DNA of 64,000 bases from Planctomycetota bacterium (GTDB lineage: Bacteria; Planctomycetota; Planctomycetia; Pirellulales; Lacipirellulaceae): positions 62,001-126,000 of the forward strand of contig JAADGV010000032.1 in the NCBI GenBank assembly GCA_013152205.1, read 5' to 3'. Position 1 is the first letter of the stretch, and every line of letters starts with the position of its first letter. Below are positions 3,833 through 27,630 of this stretch, in pieces. Below the pieces are notes generated by a model. That model ran no database searches. It worked only from the letters and a program-made list of their open reading frames with translations, and was not told the origin of the DNA. A program made the translations under genes and the position numbers.

Positions 3833-4636
3833 CTACATTCTGCGACGACGAACCATCATCACCAAGCTACCCAAGCCCATTAGGCCAAACGTAGTAGGCT
3901 CCGGGATGGCACTCCACGCGTAATAGTCAACCGATATTGGCGCTTGGACGTTGGAACTGGTGTAAGAACCGAAAGCAAGTTCCGGACTACCTGATCCCGT
4001 AGAAGCAAGTGCAATCGTTACAGGGGTACTGGGGCCCCCACCTGAGTCCCAGACAACGTCAAGATTTCCGTCCTTGAAAGTGTACTTGGCGGTCACAAAC
4101 GTACCTGGCCCGGCGAAGTGACGGATTTCAGTATTATTATCGTTGAGCAAATCGTAGACATAAATGCGCTGCTCTGTGTGAAGAATCGCGACGCGATAGA
4201 ACTGAGTCTGAGCGGTATTCTCTAACCCCACAAACACGGCCTGACCCCACATGGAGTTGAGCAAGCCACCGCTTTCAAAATCTTGCTCGAAGCGTTCCTC
4301 GAATACAAACCCGCCTGCAGAATCAATTGGGGTTACCCCGTTTGCGGCAGGGTTATCCAGGGCGTAGTTCCAATTTCCAGGAGTACTCATGGGATTCGAT
4401 GGCGAGCCATTGGGCCCATCCCAACTGAAAAGTTCGCCAGCGACTTCAAGCGCATCCCCCGTGCCGGCTGGGCGAGTCAAGGTCCACGATGGCGTTGAAG
4501 CACTGGGTAGCGGAGCGCCACCTGTCGGGTCGTACGTGTAGGCGTAATCCATGACGCCTGCCATTGCGGACGAGAAAATACCCGTCAAAGCCAATCCTGC
4601 TGTCAGAAAAATTAACGTGAGCTTGCGTGACATCAT
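3833..4636 (-). CDS. PEP-CTERM protein, paralogue of the N-terminal domain of 1485..3713
   Basis: Shares YDPTGG(S/A)PLPSASTPSWTLTR, NPAANGVTPIDSAGGFVFEERF, GGLLNSMWGQAV; ends IPEPTTFGLMGLGSLVMMVRRRRM. Confidence 0.9.
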   Translation of the reverse strand: MMSRKLTLIFLTAGLALTGIFSSAMAGVMDYAYTYDPTGGAPLPSASTPSWTLTRPAGTGDALEVAGELFSWDGPNGSPSNPMSTPGNWNYALDNPAANGVTPIDSAGGFVFEERFEQDFESGGLLNSMWGQAVFVGLENTAQTQFYRVAILHTEQRIYVYDLLNDNNTEIRHFAGPGTFVTAKYTFKDGNLDVVWDSGGGPSTPVTIALASTGSGSPELAFGSYTSSNVQAPISVDYYAWSAIPEPTTFGLMGLGSLVMMVRRRRM

Positions 4637-4743
4637 TAGTCTTTCCCTCTCTTTGCTAGTGGAAATATCTGAAAAGCATTAACAATCTTTCCTTGCTTTG
4701 CCTCACTCGGTTAGCCACTTTCTCTGGTTGTTTTTCGCTGTCG

Positions 4744-5457
4744 CTATCCTTCATTCTCAGTGGCACGGATCTCATCCCAAGACAGCCGGCGTATCGCCTC
4801 AATCGTGGCACGAATCCGCTGTTTGACCAGCTGCTCGGCGAGGTCCTGATCGTGCTGGGCAATCGCTTCGGCCACGTTGGTCCAACTCGGCAGCTTGCTG
4901 CGCACCACCTCGGGAACCTGAGCTTGGATCAATTTGCTTGTGCGTTGCGAGCCGGGGCGCAACGGCGCTAACTGATAAGACTGCCAGATCTGATAGAGCA
5001 ATGGATTGCCACAGTTGGCCATTAGGTATTCATGGTATTCCGGGATCGGCAGGTTGCGGCGATCGTCGTAGTCGATGGTGAAGTATTGGTCAAACTCAAC
5101 GGCCAACTCACACAGCCGATCAACCTGCCAGCCTGTCATGTTCTTGGCCGCTGCACGGGCCGCTCCCGACTCGATCTGTTCGCGAACTTCGTAGCGATAG
5201 AGCACCTCGTCTCGGCTCTCTTCTTCGAGCACACCGACCACACGACTACGCCGATTTCCACGCTGCCTTAAGAAGCCCTCGGCCTCGAGTCGCAAGATCG
5301 ATTCGCGGACTGGCCCTCGGCTAAGCCCGGTAAGCCGAACTGCCTTGGCTTCGGTAAGTGGCTCGCCAGTTCCAATCTGGCCTTGATGGATCATATGGAC
5401 GAGTTGCTGATATGCCTCGTCGGACTTGCTCGATCTTGTCGCAGTATCCGTGCTCAT
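4744..5457 (-). CDS. GntR family transcriptional regulator, FCD-type
   Basis: N-terminal winged helix (GEPLTEAKAVRLTGLSRGPVRESILRLEAEGFL) and all-helical C-terminal domain. Confidence 0.9.
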   Translation of the reverse strand: MSTDTATRSSKSDEAYQQLVHMIHQGQIGTGEPLTEAKAVRLTGLSRGPVRESILRLEAEGFLRQRGNRRSRVVGVLEEESRDEVLYRYEVREQIESGAARAAAKNMTGWQVDRLCELAVEFDQYFTIDYDDRRNLPIPEYHEYLMANCGNPLLYQIWQSYQLAPLRPGSQRTSKLIQAQVPEVVRSKLPSWTNVAEAIAQHDQDLAEQLVKQRIRATIEAIRRLSWDEIRATENEG

Positions 5458-5836
5458 GGCGATCCGTTCATGCTAGTGAATCAAAAAACAATCTTGTTAG
5501 CAGGATGCATTCTAGACAACAGTAACAATCTCTGCAATCACTTTTTTCAACTTTTTTATTATTCCCCCACTCTTTCAGCATTCGAAAGCATCGAAAATAG
5601 CACTTTATAAGTAATTTCCGCCGCCACTGGCTCTAAATCAGTAGTGAGCCGCTGGCAGAAGGATCGTCAATTAAACAAAAAATCAGCTACTTAATCCCAT
5701 TTGACCCGCGATTATTTACGTTTGCATCTATTTGGTAAACAAAAGATTAATCTTGTTGATCTTATGGCCTCCCGCAAGTAGAATGCGGCAAAAGTGAGGG
5801 ATCAAGGCACAATCGTGATTTCTGTGACTTGCCCGC

Positions 5837-6853
5837 ATGACTAAGTTGAAGTCGACGGCAGCTTTCAAATTCGCTTCGCCCGCTTCTTCTTACCGTCCGA
5901 CTCCAACATCCCAACTAATGCGGAGCTACTTCCAAATGATTCGACAACAATCGCGTGTTTCAGGTCTCTTGCTTCTTGGTTGGCTGCTTTCTACCTCGTT
6001 TACATGGGCAGCCAACGACAAGGCATCGCAGACTTCGTCTGCAGCAGAGCCTCAAATTGTTCGTGACGCACTCTGGGTGTGGGCTACTCCAGAGAGGGCA
6101 AAATCCGGCGAACATACGGCGGCCACCTACGCTAGCGCTGGTTCTGCGCAACAGGCTCGTATCCTGGGTGTGCCCAACGTAGTGCTGGCCGGCTCAGGAT
6201 TGCCGCACGATCGGGCCCTTGCCGAGAAATGGAGCGCCGAAGTCGCCGACGCACCTCGTGTGGTGTGGGAGATCATGCCGGACAGCGATAACAAAGAAAG
6301 ACCTACCTTCGATTTCAAACAGCGAATCGACCACCTCGCTCTACTCACGACGAAGTATCCGCATATCGAGGCCGTGATGGTCGACGACATGACAAGTGTC
6401 GCCGCTAGGCATGGATTCAAGCCCATACACCTACGCAACATTAAGACGTTACTCAAAGAGCACGAGCTACCACAGAAATTGTGGGGCGTGGTCTACACGA
6501 TGAACTTTTCGAAGGAAACGACCGACCCACTCGTCCGCGAGCTGGACGTGATCAATTTGTGGGTCTGGCAAGCCAAAGATCTCGTCGATCTTGAAAAGCA
6601 CGTTGCTGAATGCGAAAAACGCTACCCTAACAAGCCGATCGTATTGGGCCTGTACATGCGCGACTACGGAGCTGGCCGCCGAATGCCGCTGGACTTGCAT
6701 CAGCAGCAATGTGAAACGGCACTCAAGTTGCTACATCAGAATCGCATTGAGGGGATGGTGTTTCTCTCGATTCACGACGACGTAGAAGTAATCAAGTGGA
6801 CCGCAGATTGGATCAAACAAGTCGATAAACAGAAGCTCGCAGGAGCCCGTTGA
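5837..6853 (+). CDS. Hypothetical secreted protein; true start probably 5936 (signal peptide MIRQQSRVSGLLLLGWLLSTSFTWA)
   Basis: Long ORF, first gene divergent from the GntR regulator; TIM-barrel-like sequence of unknown family. Confidence 0.75.
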   Translation: MTKLKSTAAFKFASPASSYRPTPTSQLMRSYFQMIRQQSRVSGLLLLGWLLSTSFTWAANDKASQTSSAAEPQIVRDALWVWATPERAKSGEHTAATYASAGSAQQARILGVPNVVLAGSGLPHDRALAEKWSAEVADAPRVVWEIMPDSDNKERPTFDFKQRIDHLALLTTKYPHIEAVMVDDMTSVAARHGFKPIHLRNIKTLLKEHELPQKLWGVVYTMNFSKETTDPLVRELDVINLWVWQAKDLVDLEKHVAECEKRYPNKPIVLGLYMRDYGAGRRMPLDLHQQQCETALKLLHQNRIEGMVFLSIHDDVEVIKWTADWIKQVDKQKLAGAR

Positions 6854-6898
6854 ATATCCCTAAGCTTAGCTTTCTCAACCGATGGATAGGATAATGAG

Positions 6899-8071
6899 TT
6901 GATGAACGATGCGGCACTTTGCCTATTTCCTTGGGATCTGCAAGACGAGGGGCTGGAGTCAGTACTTCAGTTCGCAGCCGACTCTGGACTGACGTCGCTG
7001 TTCTTGGCAAGTGTTTATCACGCGGGCTGGTTCGTTCGACCACACAACCCAATTCAAAAATGCTACATGCCGGAAGACGGGGTGGCCTACTTCCATCCGA
7101 CCGAGTCCCTCTACGAAGCTACGCCCTTGAAACCGAAGGTCGCTGAAATTGCCCGGCAGACGGATTGGTTCGCCAGCGTGAGCAGACGGCTCGATGACTT
7201 TGGGCTGCGCCTGACCGCCTGGACGGTTTGCATGCACAATACACGTCTGGGACTTGCGCATCCTGAAGATACGGTGCGGAACGCTTGGGGAGACTCCTAT
7301 CCGCACGCCCTTTGCCCGGCCAGTCCCGCGGTCCGCTCGTATGTGCGGGCGACGGTCAAAGATTTAGCATCCCAGTATCCGCTGCAATCGATCTTTCTTG
7401 AAGCATTGAACTACCGTGGCCGACAACATGGTCACCATCACGAACGAGACGGTACCCCGCTGGGACTGCTGGAAAATGAATTGCTGGACATCAGTTTTTC
7501 CTTTCACGACATCGCTCAGGCCCAGGCGGCCGGGGTGGATGCTCAGCCGCTCCGCACAGCTATCCAAAACCACCTGAATGAATTTTTGTCCTACCTTCCT
7601 AGGCGACCGCCCGGTGCGTCTGAAACGTTGGAACAGTTTTTGAATAGCCATCCAAATCTGTCAGATTACTTGGCGGTGCTGGACGATCAGGTAGCGTCGC
7701 TGGCCGCTGAGATCAAGAATGATGTTTGCGAATCGGGCTTGCTCTTGGAGGGGTGCGAAGACGTCGATGCCTATGATGTCCGTCTGGTCGTGGCCTACGG
7801 AATGCCTCCAGACGCAGTGGCCAACCTGACCCGCGCAGCATGTCAACAGTGTACGGCAAACCAAAAGGTCCGCGTCGGATTTCGTCTTGGCTTTGATTTT
7901 CCCGATCAGCCAGGAGCGATTTTCAACGCCGAGGAAGCTCGAAACTGCGTACGGGCAGCCGTCGAAAATGGGGCCGATTCTGTTTTCTTTTATAACTATT
8001 CAGAGTCTCCGGAAAATTACCTAAACTGGATCAAACCCGCCATTGACGGTTCGATTCAATTGACCGCTTAG
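6899..8071 (+). CDS. Hypothetical protein, possible TIM-barrel/hydrolase-like
   Basis: 390-aa ORF in line with downstream genes; 8-bp gap to next CDS. Confidence 0.75.
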   Translation: MMNDAALCLFPWDLQDEGLESVLQFAADSGLTSLFLASVYHAGWFVRPHNPIQKCYMPEDGVAYFHPTESLYEATPLKPKVAEIARQTDWFASVSRRLDDFGLRLTAWTVCMHNTRLGLAHPEDTVRNAWGDSYPHALCPASPAVRSYVRATVKDLASQYPLQSIFLEALNYRGRQHGHHHERDGTPLGLLENELLDISFSFHDIAQAQAAGVDAQPLRTAIQNHLNEFLSYLPRRPPGASETLEQFLNSHPNLSDYLAVLDDQVASLAAEIKNDVCESGLLLEGCEDVDAYDVRLVVAYGMPPDAVANLTRAACQQCTANQKVRVGFRLGFDFPDQPGAIFNAEEARNCVRAAVENGADSVFFYNYSESPENYLNWIKPAIDGSIQLTA

Positions 8072-8079
8072 AGGATCAC

Positions 8080-9201
8080 ATGACGTTACGTGTTGGACTG
8101 ATTGGTTGTGGTGCGATCAGCGAGAGTCATCTGACGGCGCTCTGTGCTCAGACAGATGTCAACGTGGTTGCGTGCGCCGATCTGTGTCTCGAAGCCGCCC
8201 AAAGGCGTGCCGATCAATTTGAGATTCCCCATGTGTTTAGTAATGCCGACGAACTGCTCGAATTAGTCGATATTGATCTGGTTTCCATCTGCGTGCCTCC
8301 GAAGTGGCATGAGAAACTGTTTCTCGATGCAATAGCATGCAACAAACACGTCTTGATCGAAAAGCCGCTGGCAACGGATCTTGCCGGGGCCGACCGCATG
8401 GTCGAAGCCATGGACAAGTCCGATCGCATCGCAGCAGTGCCCCTGATACACCGGTATTCTCCTGGCTACCACGCCTTACGCCAACTCATCGAATGCGGGG
8501 CGATTGGTTCTGTCCGATCGGTGCGACTTGAGTTCGGAACCGATATGTACCGAGACAGCCGTTTCTCGAAACATCAACAAGACCCTCGCGGTTGGTTGGT
8601 TAATCAGGAGATAGCGGGCGGGGGGCTGCTGATGTCCTCAACGATTCATTTTTTGTCAGTGCTCTTGCATGTACTAGGTAACTTCTCGGCTAAGAGCGTG
8701 ACGGCACATGTGCAGCAACTCCACCCTAAATCGTTGGATGGGATTGAAGACGATGTCGACCTCTCTATCAAGCTTGATAACGGTAGCGAGATACTGCTTC
8801 ACGAAAGCTGGAGACGCAATATTCCCTATCGGTGTGAAATTATCGGAGATTGTGGACGATTTCTGATCACTTCGGGCAACACATGGAACGATCTGTCGAT
8901 CATAGGACGATGCCAGGGAGATGTGCCCAGGCAGTATCAATCGTTTCTGAAGGGCGATGAATTTCACGCGGAAGCATCGGCACTGACCGCGCCATTTTCA
9001 CCGTCGTTCGGTGGACTAATGGAGGACCTTTTCTGCAGCATTCAAAAGGGAAAGCATATGGAGCGACTCCCCGATTTGCTCCATGCCCGCAACATGCAGG
9101 CGATCGTTGCAGCTTGCTATCAGTCCGAGCGATTGAAGACTGTGGCAAGAGTCGACTGGCGGAAGAATGCCAACCTCTTGCCTAGCATCTCGAAAGAGTG
9201 A
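8080..9201 (+). CDS. Gfo/Idh/MocA family oxidoreductase
   Basis: N-terminal Rossmann motif VGLIGCGAISESHL; EKPLATDLAGADRM. Confidence 0.93.
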   Translation: MTLRVGLIGCGAISESHLTALCAQTDVNVVACADLCLEAAQRRADQFEIPHVFSNADELLELVDIDLVSICVPPKWHEKLFLDAIACNKHVLIEKPLATDLAGADRMVEAMDKSDRIAAVPLIHRYSPGYHALRQLIECGAIGSVRSVRLEFGTDMYRDSRFSKHQQDPRGWLVNQEIAGGGLLMSSTIHFLSVLLHVLGNFSAKSVTAHVQQLHPKSLDGIEDDVDLSIKLDNGSEILLHESWRRNIPYRCEIIGDCGRFLITSGNTWNDLSIIGRCQGDVPRQYQSFLKGDEFHAEASALTAPFSPSFGGLMEDLFCSIQKGKHMERLPDLLHARNMQAIVAACYQSERLKTVARVDWRKNANLLPSISKE

Positions 9202-24081: not shown

Positions 24082-24307
24082 TCACGCAAAGGCGCGAAGG
24101 CGCCAAGAAAGAAACGCCAAAAGAAAAACCAGGATGGACTGGATTATTCTTTCCTTGAATGTTTTGCTTAGAAAATGGCCCGACCCTCTGGGCGGAGTGC
24201 CAGAACGCACAGTAGTGATATGCTCAAGCCTTGTATAATCCCGTCTATCTTGTAAATCCTGTCAACTTTTGGAACCCTGCTCTTTGCGTCTTCGCGCCTT
24301 TGCGTGA
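24082..24307. repeat. ~226-bp intergenic element bounded by a perfect 18-nt inverted repeat
   Basis: TCACGCAAAGGCGCGAAG (24082-24099) and CTTCGCGCCTTTGCGTGA (24290-24307). Confidence 0.85.
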
Positions 24308-24381
24308 GGACGTTTAGTAGTGTGGAGGTCCGTGTTCCACAAATCAAAACACCCCTTCCTTACCCCCAGTTGCCCCACAAA

Positions 24382-25260
24382 ATGACACCGTTTGTTCTGC
24401 TAACTTACTACTGCTTGCTGATCTTTGGCGCGTCGATCGCCGGGGGGATGATCCCGTCTTGGATCCAACTCACGCACCGCCGGATGGAGCTTGCCGTGAG
24501 CTTTGTGGCGGGGGTGATGCTTGGTATCGGGCTATTGCACATGTTGCCTCATGCCCTCGAGCAAGCGAGGCGCAACGCCCCTGACGCGCAGGGCACCGAG
24601 CTTACGATCATGCTATGGGTGTTGGCGGGGCTGCTGACGATGTTTTTCATCGAGCGGTTTTTTTGCTTTCATCATCACGAAGTTGAAGATGGTGAGGTGA
24701 CCTGCCATCACGAACACGATCATGGCCACGATTTAACCTGGAGCGGCGCAGCACTCGGGCTGACATTGCACAGCGTGATCGCTGGCGTGGCATTGGCCGC
24801 GAGCGTGCGGCACGGACACAGCAGTTGGGAGTTGGCGGGGCTGGGTACTTTTCTTGTGATTTTACTGCACAAGCCGTTCGACTCGATGACAATCGCTACG
24901 CTGATGGCCCGCGGCGGCTGGTCGTTGGGGTGGCGGCATGTGGTGAACGGGCTATTTTCGTTGGCGATTCCGCTGGGGGCGTTCATCTTTCACTTTGGCG
25001 TAATGACGAATGACGAGGGCGGAGCGACCCTCGCCTATGCCTTGGCTTTTGCCGCAGGGACGTTTCTGTGCATCGCCTTGAGCGATCTGCTGCCAGAGTT
25101 GCAGTTTCACGACCACGACCGGGGCAAACTCTCCGCCGCTTTGCTGCTGGGGCTGGCGCTCGCCTACGGGGTATGCCGCCTAGAAGCCATTTCGCATCAG
25201 CACCCCCCTGCCCCGCCGAGTGCCAATACGACTGGAGTTGCTGTAGAGGTTACACGCTAA
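24382..25260 (+). CDS. ZIP family metal transporter
   Basis: Multiple TM, His-rich loop HHHEVEDGEVTCHHEHDHGHD, LHSVIAGVALA, HKPFDSM. Confidence 0.92.
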   Translation: MTPFVLLTYYCLLIFGASIAGGMIPSWIQLTHRRMELAVSFVAGVMLGIGLLHMLPHALEQARRNAPDAQGTELTIMLWVLAGLLTMFFIERFFCFHHHEVEDGEVTCHHEHDHGHDLTWSGAALGLTLHSVIAGVALAASVRHGHSSWELAGLGTFLVILLHKPFDSMTIATLMARGGWSLGWRHVVNGLFSLAIPLGAFIFHFGVMTNDEGGATLAYALAFAAGTFLCIALSDLLPELQFHDHDRGKLSAALLLGLALAYGVCRLEAISHQHPPAPPSANTTGVAVEVTR

Positions 25261-25367
25261 GGAAGAGTACTCGCGGTCGACGAAAAACGGTAGGATGGCG
25301 TGCTCGCACCCATCTTCTCTCGTGATTGATGGGTGAACCTGTCGGTGGTAAGGCAATACAAGTAGTA

Positions 25368-25506
25368 GTAGGGTGGGTGTAGCGAAGCGAAACCCACCGT
25401 AATGTATGGCCTGAAAGGTGCGTTACAAGGGAGTGGTGCGTTAACGCTATTTCTACATTAAAACCGAAAAATAAACGCACCGTTTTTTTACGATCACGCA
25501 CCCTAC
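25368..25506. repeat. ~139-bp element bounded by GTAGGGTGGGTG / CACGCACCCTAC inverted repeat
   Basis: 11/12 complementary termini; internal GGTGGGTGTAGCGAAGCGAAACCCACC and GGTGCGTTA words. Confidence 0.65.
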
Positions 25507-25571
25507 TTTACTGTATCCATAGGCTCAATTGTACACCCGTAATATCGGGCAATCAAACACACCACCGAAGC

Positions 25572-25676
25572 CGCAAACGACCAAGCTAACCTGCCCGGTG
25601 CGGCCGGGCAGAGGAAACTGATACTACCATAAGCGCCGCCCGGCAGCACCGGGTCAGGTTGAGCGCCTTGTTATGC
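25572..25676 (-). other. attC: Candidate integron attC recombination site at the 3' end of the FRG gene
   Basis: Outer AAC (25576-25578) / GTT (25670-25672); two 9-nt non-complementary spacers; inner arms AACCTGCCCGGTGCGGCCGGGC (25588-25609) and GCCCGGCAGCACCGGGTCAGGTT (25638-25660), one mismatch and one extra base; FRG stop TAA inside the GCATAAC box. Confidence 0.68.
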
Positions 25677-26456
25677 CCCTTGTTCGTCAGGCAGCATTTC
25701 ATGTTGATAGCGTATGCGTTCAATTAGGCCTGACAACCCGGGGTACAACGACGCCGGATGGATGCCAATACGACAAAGAAGATGCCGCAAAGTGCGGAAA
25801 CAGTCGGCTGGAATCTTGATTTCAGTCAGTCGTAAGTCGGCGTCGGAGAGTTGCTCCTCGAAAGGAAGGAATCCTTTGCCGTTGCGATGATGCACGGTGA
25901 ACAATCCAGATTGAGCTTGGATATATGGAAAGACGTGTTCTGGGAGGTAGATGCGAGTTGTTTCAATCGAAAATGGTGAACATTGTTTTTCAGTGTTCGA
26001 GATTACTTGGGATGATTCGTAACCGTGTGCCCAGACGACTCCGGGTTCTTGTTTGTGCGCGGGCTTACTCACCGCGAACCATAGCGCGGCAAGCGGATTC
26101 TTTGTCCAGTCAAGCAATCTGGTAGGTAGCCCATTGTGTTGTGCAACCGCGAGCCATTGCCATGGCGTTTGCGGAACGTCTGTCAGATACGGAATCGCTT
26201 CGCGTTTGAACTCGTCGAAGATTTCAGTTTCAGTGCGGACGTACTCGGGTACACGTGCGACTGAAGGAAGCAGTGGACAACAGCGTCGTTGGCCACGGAA
26301 GACGACGTCTTCGTTTCCGTAGAGCCACGTTGCGACGGCGATAAAATCGCCGACGGATTCGACACGGTAAACGCGAGGTTTGCCGTCAGTTTTCGATACA
26401 AGGAACTTATCCAACGGTACTCCGTGTTTGCTGGGGCATAACTTGTGATTAGACAC
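25671..26456 (-). CDS. FRG domain-containing protein
   Basis: [51 protein letters not shown] start. Confidence 0.88.
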
Positions 26457-26556
26457 AAAAAACGTGGATAAGCGGGGCTTATCTACATGCTTTGTAGATA
26501 AATCGGGGGCTGCGGTCGATACCTTCGATTATCAGAATTCCGCTTCGGCACCGTTT

Positions 26557-27630
26557 TCATCGAGTCTTCCCGGCGGTAGGTGCAAAATCGGCATGACGGG
26601 TTTTTTGCTTTTGTACGGTTGCACCCGAGGGCTCGCTGCGCTGTTGCGGCTCATGCTGCAACCAATCGAGGATACGCCAGTCGAGCCAGCGGAAATCTTC
26701 GTCGCCGTTTCGAGCGGCTAAAAATCCCAGATGTCCGCCGTGGGGCGTGGTGATGATGTCGACCGCAGAACTATGGGCGGACGCCAAGAGCGATTCCACC
26801 GGGACGACCGGGTCGTCTTCGCTCGAAAAGATGGTAACCGGATGGCGGATGGCCTTGAGCTTAGGGCCGGGCGAGGCCTCTTGATAGTAATGATCTGCCG
26901 AGCGAAAACCTCCGCTGGGGGCGATCACCAGCTCGTCGATTTCGCGCAACCGGCGCGGACGGCGCGGCATCACTTCGGGAGCCATCTCAGGAAAGCATTG
27001 CCAACGCGCGAGCGTTTGTTTCCAGAGTATGTTGACAAAAAACTTGTCGTATCGTGTGCCCAAAAACGTATGAAAGTGGCGTTCGACGGCAGCTAAATCT
27101 ACCGGTGGGCAAATAACCAAAGAGCGTTCGAGGTTGCCGACTCGCATGTCTCCTGCTTCGGCAAGCATGTTGAGCGTTTGCGTACCGCCCATCGAAAAGG
27201 CAACCAGGTCGGTTGTTGCCTCGGGGTAGAGCTCGGCAATGAAGTGCAAAGCAGATGCAACGTCGGCGTAACGGCCGCAATGGGTCGGAAGTTTGGCAAG
27301 GCCTTCGCCAGCCCCACAGCCTCGCATATCATTGCGAAACACCCGATAGCCGCGTGCGACAAGCCGCTCGACCATCCGGCACATGTACGTACTAAGATGG
27401 CAGCCACCAAGCCCGTGAACCAAAAAAACGATGGGCGACGAATCCGTTGCATCAGCAGCACAATCTTCGTGGACCACCAATTGGTCGCCGTCTTCCGACT
27501 GGATCTTATGCTGCTGAGCTTGATAGGGCTGGGCACGGCTTGGCCAACGGATGCCAAGGATCGTCTGCGCGTGGCCGTTGGTTATCAACGGGTGAGCCGG
27601 AAACGCCCATTGTTCGCGATGGTGAACCAT
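26557..27630 (-). CDS. YheT-like alpha/beta hydrolase
   Basis: FVLVHGLGG-type motif (IVFLVHGLGGCHLSTYM), FRNDMRGCGAGEGLA, VAFSMGGTQTLNML. Confidence 0.92.
   Translation of the reverse strand: MVHHREQWAFPAHPLITNGHAQTILGIRWPSRAQPYQAQQHKIQSEDGDQLVVHEDCAADATDSSPIVFLVHGLGGCHLSTYMCRMVERLVARGYRVFRNDMRGCGAGEGLAKLPTHCGRYADVASALHFIAELYPEATTDLVAFSMGGTQTLNMLAEAGDMRVGNLERSLVICPPVDLAAVERHFHTFLGTRYDKFFVNILWKQTLARWQCFPEMAPEVMPRRPRRLREIDELVIAPSGGFRSADHYYQEASPGPKLKAIRHPVTIFSSEDDPVVPVESLLASAHSSAVDIITTPHGGHLGFLAARNGDEDFRWLDWRILDWLQHEPQQRSEPSGATVQKQKTRHADFAPTAGKTR

Follow-up and report, generated by a model that had tools for sequence, protein, structure and literature searches.

The locus raises the question of whether the FRG-domain gene that occupies the 1.3-kb gap between convergent ZIP transporter and alpha/beta-hydrolase genes is the cargo of an integron gene cassette and, if so, how it came to be there. 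We addressed this question in a window of 64,000 nucleotides (the whole stretch of planctomycete DNA that was analyzed), in which an initial annotation had proposed a captured cassette with an attC-like hairpin behind the gene. The features concerned are as follows, in positions of the window.

24304..25260, plus strand: flanking ZIP transporter gene, convergent (Pfam; syntenic in relatives)
25572..25676, minus strand: attC site as inserted, 105 bp (hit of covariance model R1, aadA1-like geometry, bottom-strand fold)
25572..25578, minus strand: R' box, which reads GTTTGCG after insertion; past the G, the sequence is flanking chromosome
25578..26441, minus strand: integron gene cassette, 864 bp, from G^TTATGCCCC to ...TTGGTCG^TTT
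25585..25601, minus strand: L' arm GCACCGGG CAGGTT AGC (arm pairing, scanner, fold)
25646..25664, minus strand: L'' arm GCT-c-AACCTG-a-CCCGGTGC; on the bottom strand, its additional C and A correspond to the extrahelical G and T
25670..25676, minus strand: R'' box GCATAAC, which includes the TAA stop (sequence)
25671..26414, minus strand: FRG-domain gene, 247 aa, TTG start (Pfam FRG, PF08867, 3.7e-25; PADLOC PDC-S15, 2.5e-71)
26420..26425, minus strand: probable ribosome-binding site ACGGAG (from sequence)
26433..26442, minus strand: 5' end of the cassette, GTTATGCCCC, which acts as the R' partner once the cassette is circular (complement of GGGGCATAAC)
26457..26483, minus strand: hairpin resembling a terminator, with its T-run, behind the hydrolase gene, holding the GTT at which the cassette had initially been ended (hairpin quoted as 26483-26467)
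26557..27630, minus strand: flanking alpha/beta hydrolase gene (Pfam; syntenic in relatives)

The Hairpin behind the FRG Gene Is an attC Site

The covariance model R1 was built on 19 attC sites, of which five came from integrons on plasmids and 14 from IntI-bearing members of the phylum, with none from the genome under study. R1 matched the site over its full length (positions 1-59 of 59) with 39.3-40.0 bits (40.0 in the window search) and a whole-genome E-value of 3.9e-6, which is a strong match to a model trained without this site. When R1 was run with filters off, the site was not reported; we suspect a length cap as the cause of this miss, the match being 105 nt long with a 49-nt loop insertion on a model of 59 positions. 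We also wrote a simple attC scanner, which seeks an AAC box, spacers, arms with bulges, and a GTT box, and it read the stem as a 5-nt spacer, 3 bp, a bulge, 6 bp, a bulge, 8 bp, and a 6-nt spacer. None of 94 dinucleotide-shuffled windows reached the arm score of the site (21), and a single lower-scoring match to the geometry occurred overall. An Rfam scan of the window gave no match. Taken together, we concluded that the attC site is genuine and not a chance resemblance.

Published attC sites range from 57 to 141 bp, and their hallmark is a bottom-strand hairpin in which the central spacer is unpaired, the extrahelical bases keep a fixed spacing, and the terminal structure varies (PMC5371416); the site at 25572..25676 lies within this range at 105 bp and has all of these features. 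As initially described, outer AAC/GTT boxes surround unpaired spacers, inside which a long, imperfect inverted repeat encloses a variable loop; however, the spacers AAGGC and TTGGTC measure 5 and 6 nt rather than 9 nt, since pairing already begins with the 3 bp that follow them (GCT/AGC), and in place of one extra base we counted two one-base bulges, both on the R'' side and 6 bp apart, plus one mismatch closer to the loop. The gene ends ...GAACAAGGGGCATAACAAGGCGCTC, and its TAA stop (25673-25671) does lie inside the R'' box GCATAAC, which is off the RYYYAAC consensus by one base. Both strands were folded, and the bottom strand gave an attC-like fold, with -28.7 kcal/mol (z -4.65) in place and -37.0 kcal/mol (z -7.1) in the circle form, where R' and R'' are fully paired, the spacer is unpaired, T and G are extrahelical, and the loop is 28 nt long; the bottom- and top-strand folds were of roughly equal stability.

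Complementary Ends Set the Boundaries of the Cassette

In integrons, the bases past the cleaved G of R' are those of the next cassette or of the flank, so that a mismatch between R' and R'' is expected in place. Their poor pairing had been regarded as the main weakness of the cassette reading; the mismatch is present in the inserted site, but it is no weakness, because the cassette's own 5' end pairs exactly with R'' over 10 nt. A search for the complement of R'' in the 2.5 kb upstream found one place, where GTTATGCCCC (26442-26433) is the exact reverse complement of GGGGCATAAC (25670-25679, at R''). Since this was the sole R'' complement upstream, we placed the 5' boundary at G^TTATGCCCC (26442/26441), such that the G at 26442 remains with the chromosome, the first cassette base is 26441, and the cassette comprises 864 bp (25578-26441). 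The left end had previously been put at the GTT at 26463; that GTT opens the T-run of the terminator-like hairpin of the hydrolase gene, and the boundary lies about 25 bp further inward. Circularization brings R'' (GGGGCATAAC) together with GTTATGCCCC, which gives perfect pairing of R' with R'', and the attC joint expected on excision is GGTCG^TTATGCCCC. The rule that the 5' end complements R'' also held elsewhere in the genome, in cassette 1 (13 nt) and cassette 2 (9 nt) of contig 89 and in one cassette of contig 127 (11 nt). The predicted cassette-free site is ...TCTAATCACAAG joined to TTTGCGGCTTCGG, and a pattern search for the joined sequence AATCACAAGTTTGCGGC elsewhere in the same genome found no copy.

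The Cargo Is a Candidate Defence Gene

The FRG gene probably starts at the TTG at 26414, judged from the ACGGAG 5 nt upstream; this codon sits 27 bp within the cassette, and the GTG at 26456 falls outside it. In published cassettes, the start lies 25-28 bp from the boundary (PMC12690207). The compact gene start noted initially thus holds for the distance to the boundary, but not for the GTT from which it was reckoned, which belongs to the terminator T-run. A consensus scan detected no promoter-like site within the cassette, which is therefore compact in having its stop in R'', a start near the boundary, and no promoter-like site of its own; expression of the gene might, with some uncertainty, depend on an outside promoter or be weak.

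The likeness of the protein to PADLOC PDC-S15 and Pfam FRG lies in the family profile match (2.5e-71, nearly full-length for PDC-S15) and in the retained motifs, FRGQ and a second one of 12 residues; the difference lies in the 48% identity to its nearest aligned homologue. The best-ranked plasmid homologues showed just 34-37% identity, and those of phages were weaker. Homologues were sparse, being present in five other genomes of a phylum sample (392) and in one other genome of a family sample (44; 37%), and a search of the genome contigs with the FRG protein gave no match. A single-sequence AlphaFold model was too poor for use (pLDDT 34). The FRG family has been placed in the ADP-ribosyltransferase superfamily, with possible NADase activity and a part in prokaryotic immunity (PMC9503650); by analogy, the protein may be an NAD-handling phage-defence effector with an ADP-ribosyltransferase fold. 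Separately, contig 80 of the genome carries a second, distant FRG-domain gene (L015:4348-5166; 25-27% identity), and this contig has no attC hit.

The Locus and Its Integron Background in Relatives

In five other members of the genus (G001, G003, G008, G009, and G010), the ZIP and hydrolase genes stand close together without the FRG gene. The intergenic DNA is too diverged from that of relatives for base-level alignment, and the comparison was made at the gene level; as regards the presence/absence comparison that the initial annotation had called for, the gene pair lacks the cassette in these five members, and the breaks are placed at the level of genes. The two tests on which that annotation had staked its reading, the attC model and synteny with the cassette in relatives, both came out for a cassette.

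Two loci of other genomes (L070 and L073, in G004 and G006) have two other genes between ZIP and hydrolase, one of which resembles a membrane transporter; the spot is thus variable in the genus. The central part of 25261-25571 in the window appeared repeat-like, with 76% identity over 93 nt to L127:6345-6436, just behind an attC of the contig 127 array.

The site was the one R1 hit in the window, and the genome search with R1 found about 13 further attC sites at six other loci: contig 127 has five, contigs 89, 86, and 109 have two apiece (the second on contig 109 being weak), and contigs 65 and 115 have one apiece. The cassette, initially called solitary, is thus alone locally but not in its genome. 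A pattern search found the R'' motif frame once in the genome, at the site itself. Genes near the further attC sites include those for DUF4160/DUF2442, a ParE-like toxin, DUF6998, and DUF4145. That the window holds no integrase was upheld, and a profile search found no IntI above the cut-off in the whole draft genome either (93% complete, 130 contigs). Matches to TIGR02249 on contigs 55 and 60 (298 and 314 aa) were rejected as IntI; they look XerC/XerD-type, fall well below the cut-off, and come in two pieces that leave profile positions 183-238 unmatched. Among the 13 other genus members, nine had attC hits and two (G006 and G011) had IntI, which was present in nine of 44 family genomes. With attC sites so much more widespread than IntI in these members and no IntI above the cut-off in the genome itself, cassettes outnumber integrases in this group.

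The array on contig 127 (L127, G000:C127:34000-42574; 4234-8098) has five attC sites without an integrase, ends close to a contig end, and includes among its cassettes the DUF4160/DUF2442 pair and the DUF6998 gene. On contig 86 (L128, 5710-6583), two attC sites whose cores have decayed, reading GCT for GTT and AAT for AAC, flank the gene of the ParE-like toxin together with that of its probable antitoxin. On contig 115 (L130), some 650 nt upstream of its attC, GTGATTTTAGGC|GTTCGTTGCG resembles the 3' end of another attC, one that the model did not report. G006 has two equal-scoring genes for integron integrases (C1:2048489-2049421 and 4117625-4118557), each about 1.6 kb before an attC hit, again of equal score (2051014 and 4120150), possibly a duplicated integron.

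Probable Insertion as a Single Unit

The match to an independent attC model, the 10-nt end complement, and the gene pair without the cassette in relatives confirmed the captured cassette as to kind; the integration step is what we infer. Thus, we proposed that an integron gene cassette was, with high probability, inserted as a single unit at a chromosomal G^TT between the convergent genes. An IntI that either worked in trans or was later lost would bind the folded attC bottom strand of the circular cassette. In the manner known from attG sites, this strand would be exchanged with ...AATCACAAG^TTTGCGGC..., a target other than attI, and the product of strand exchange would be resolved by replication.

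Alternatively, the cassette could be all that is left of a larger array (a chromosomal integron in decay, or a CALIN) that lost its other cassettes and integrase by deletion, without any lone insertion at a secondary site. The genome does have arrays of 5, 2, 2, and 2 attC sites without an integrase, and IntI is still present in two genus members; however, the flanking intergenic DNA (about 430 bp) showed no attC remnant or intI fragment, the window has its one attC hit, a CGCAAAC partner was not found downstream, and the T-run of the hydrolase terminator stops 15 nt short of the 5' boundary, which makes such a history unlikely.

It is highly improbable that the FRG gene is an old resident behind which the attC-like hairpin alone was inserted. 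FRG genes need not travel as cassettes, since none of the homologues in the phylum has an attC within 1.5 kb downstream; but here the complementary 5' end brackets the gene, its stop codon lies within R'', relatives lack it between these neighbours, and it is seldom present in the family. An ordinary terminator or repeated extragenic palindrome that resembles attC by chance would account for a strong hairpin directly behind the gene, and yet the stem is followed by no T-run, the R'' frame is not repeated in the genome, the two bulges stand at canonical positions, the model score and the shuffles exclude chance, and the 10-nt end complement would be left unexplained; we give this reading next to no credence.

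Having favored insertion as a single unit, we tentatively consider a wider possibility, namely that these genomes scatter single defence-type cassettes to chromosomal secondary sites with an integrase in trans or transiently present, by which FRG (PDC-S15) phage defence might move without an integron platform.

Comparison with Known Systems

The complementary ends of the cassette provide an independent check, which supports a lone site and sets both boundaries to the base, and the check is applicable to any lone attC candidate. Such sites are under-reported because the standard tool demands two attC sites by default, which limits false positives (PMC9024848). What the cassette carries is a candidate gene for phage defence, in a genome whose gene content looks planctomycete-like, and the genus, with attC in nine and integrase in two of its 13 other members, suits the study of cassettes that outlive integrases.

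The element is a SALIN (single attC lacking integrase), a type already known: SALIN and CALIN are the IntegronFinder terms for a single attC and an attC cluster, respectively, with no integron integrase (PMC9024848, PMC12690207). With one attC and its cassette, and an integrase above the cut-off found neither in the window nor in the genome, nothing essential differs from this type; the genome additionally has arrays of 2-5 attC sites. Insertion of cassettes in chromosomal G^TT outside integrons, at attG sites, has been described (Loot et al. 2024, as cited in PMC12901181), and, as far as that citation conveys, the likeness lies in a lone cassette, a chromosomal G^TT, and no integron platform, with the insertion here being deduced from the sequence of one genome and gene-level synteny. 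Finally, our scanner read the aadA1 attC of class 1 integrons with a layout identical to that of the present site in spacers and stem bulges (3 bp, bulge, 6 bp, bulge); the aadA1 site has 60 bp versus 105 bp here, and the longer terminal part of the present site accounts for the difference.
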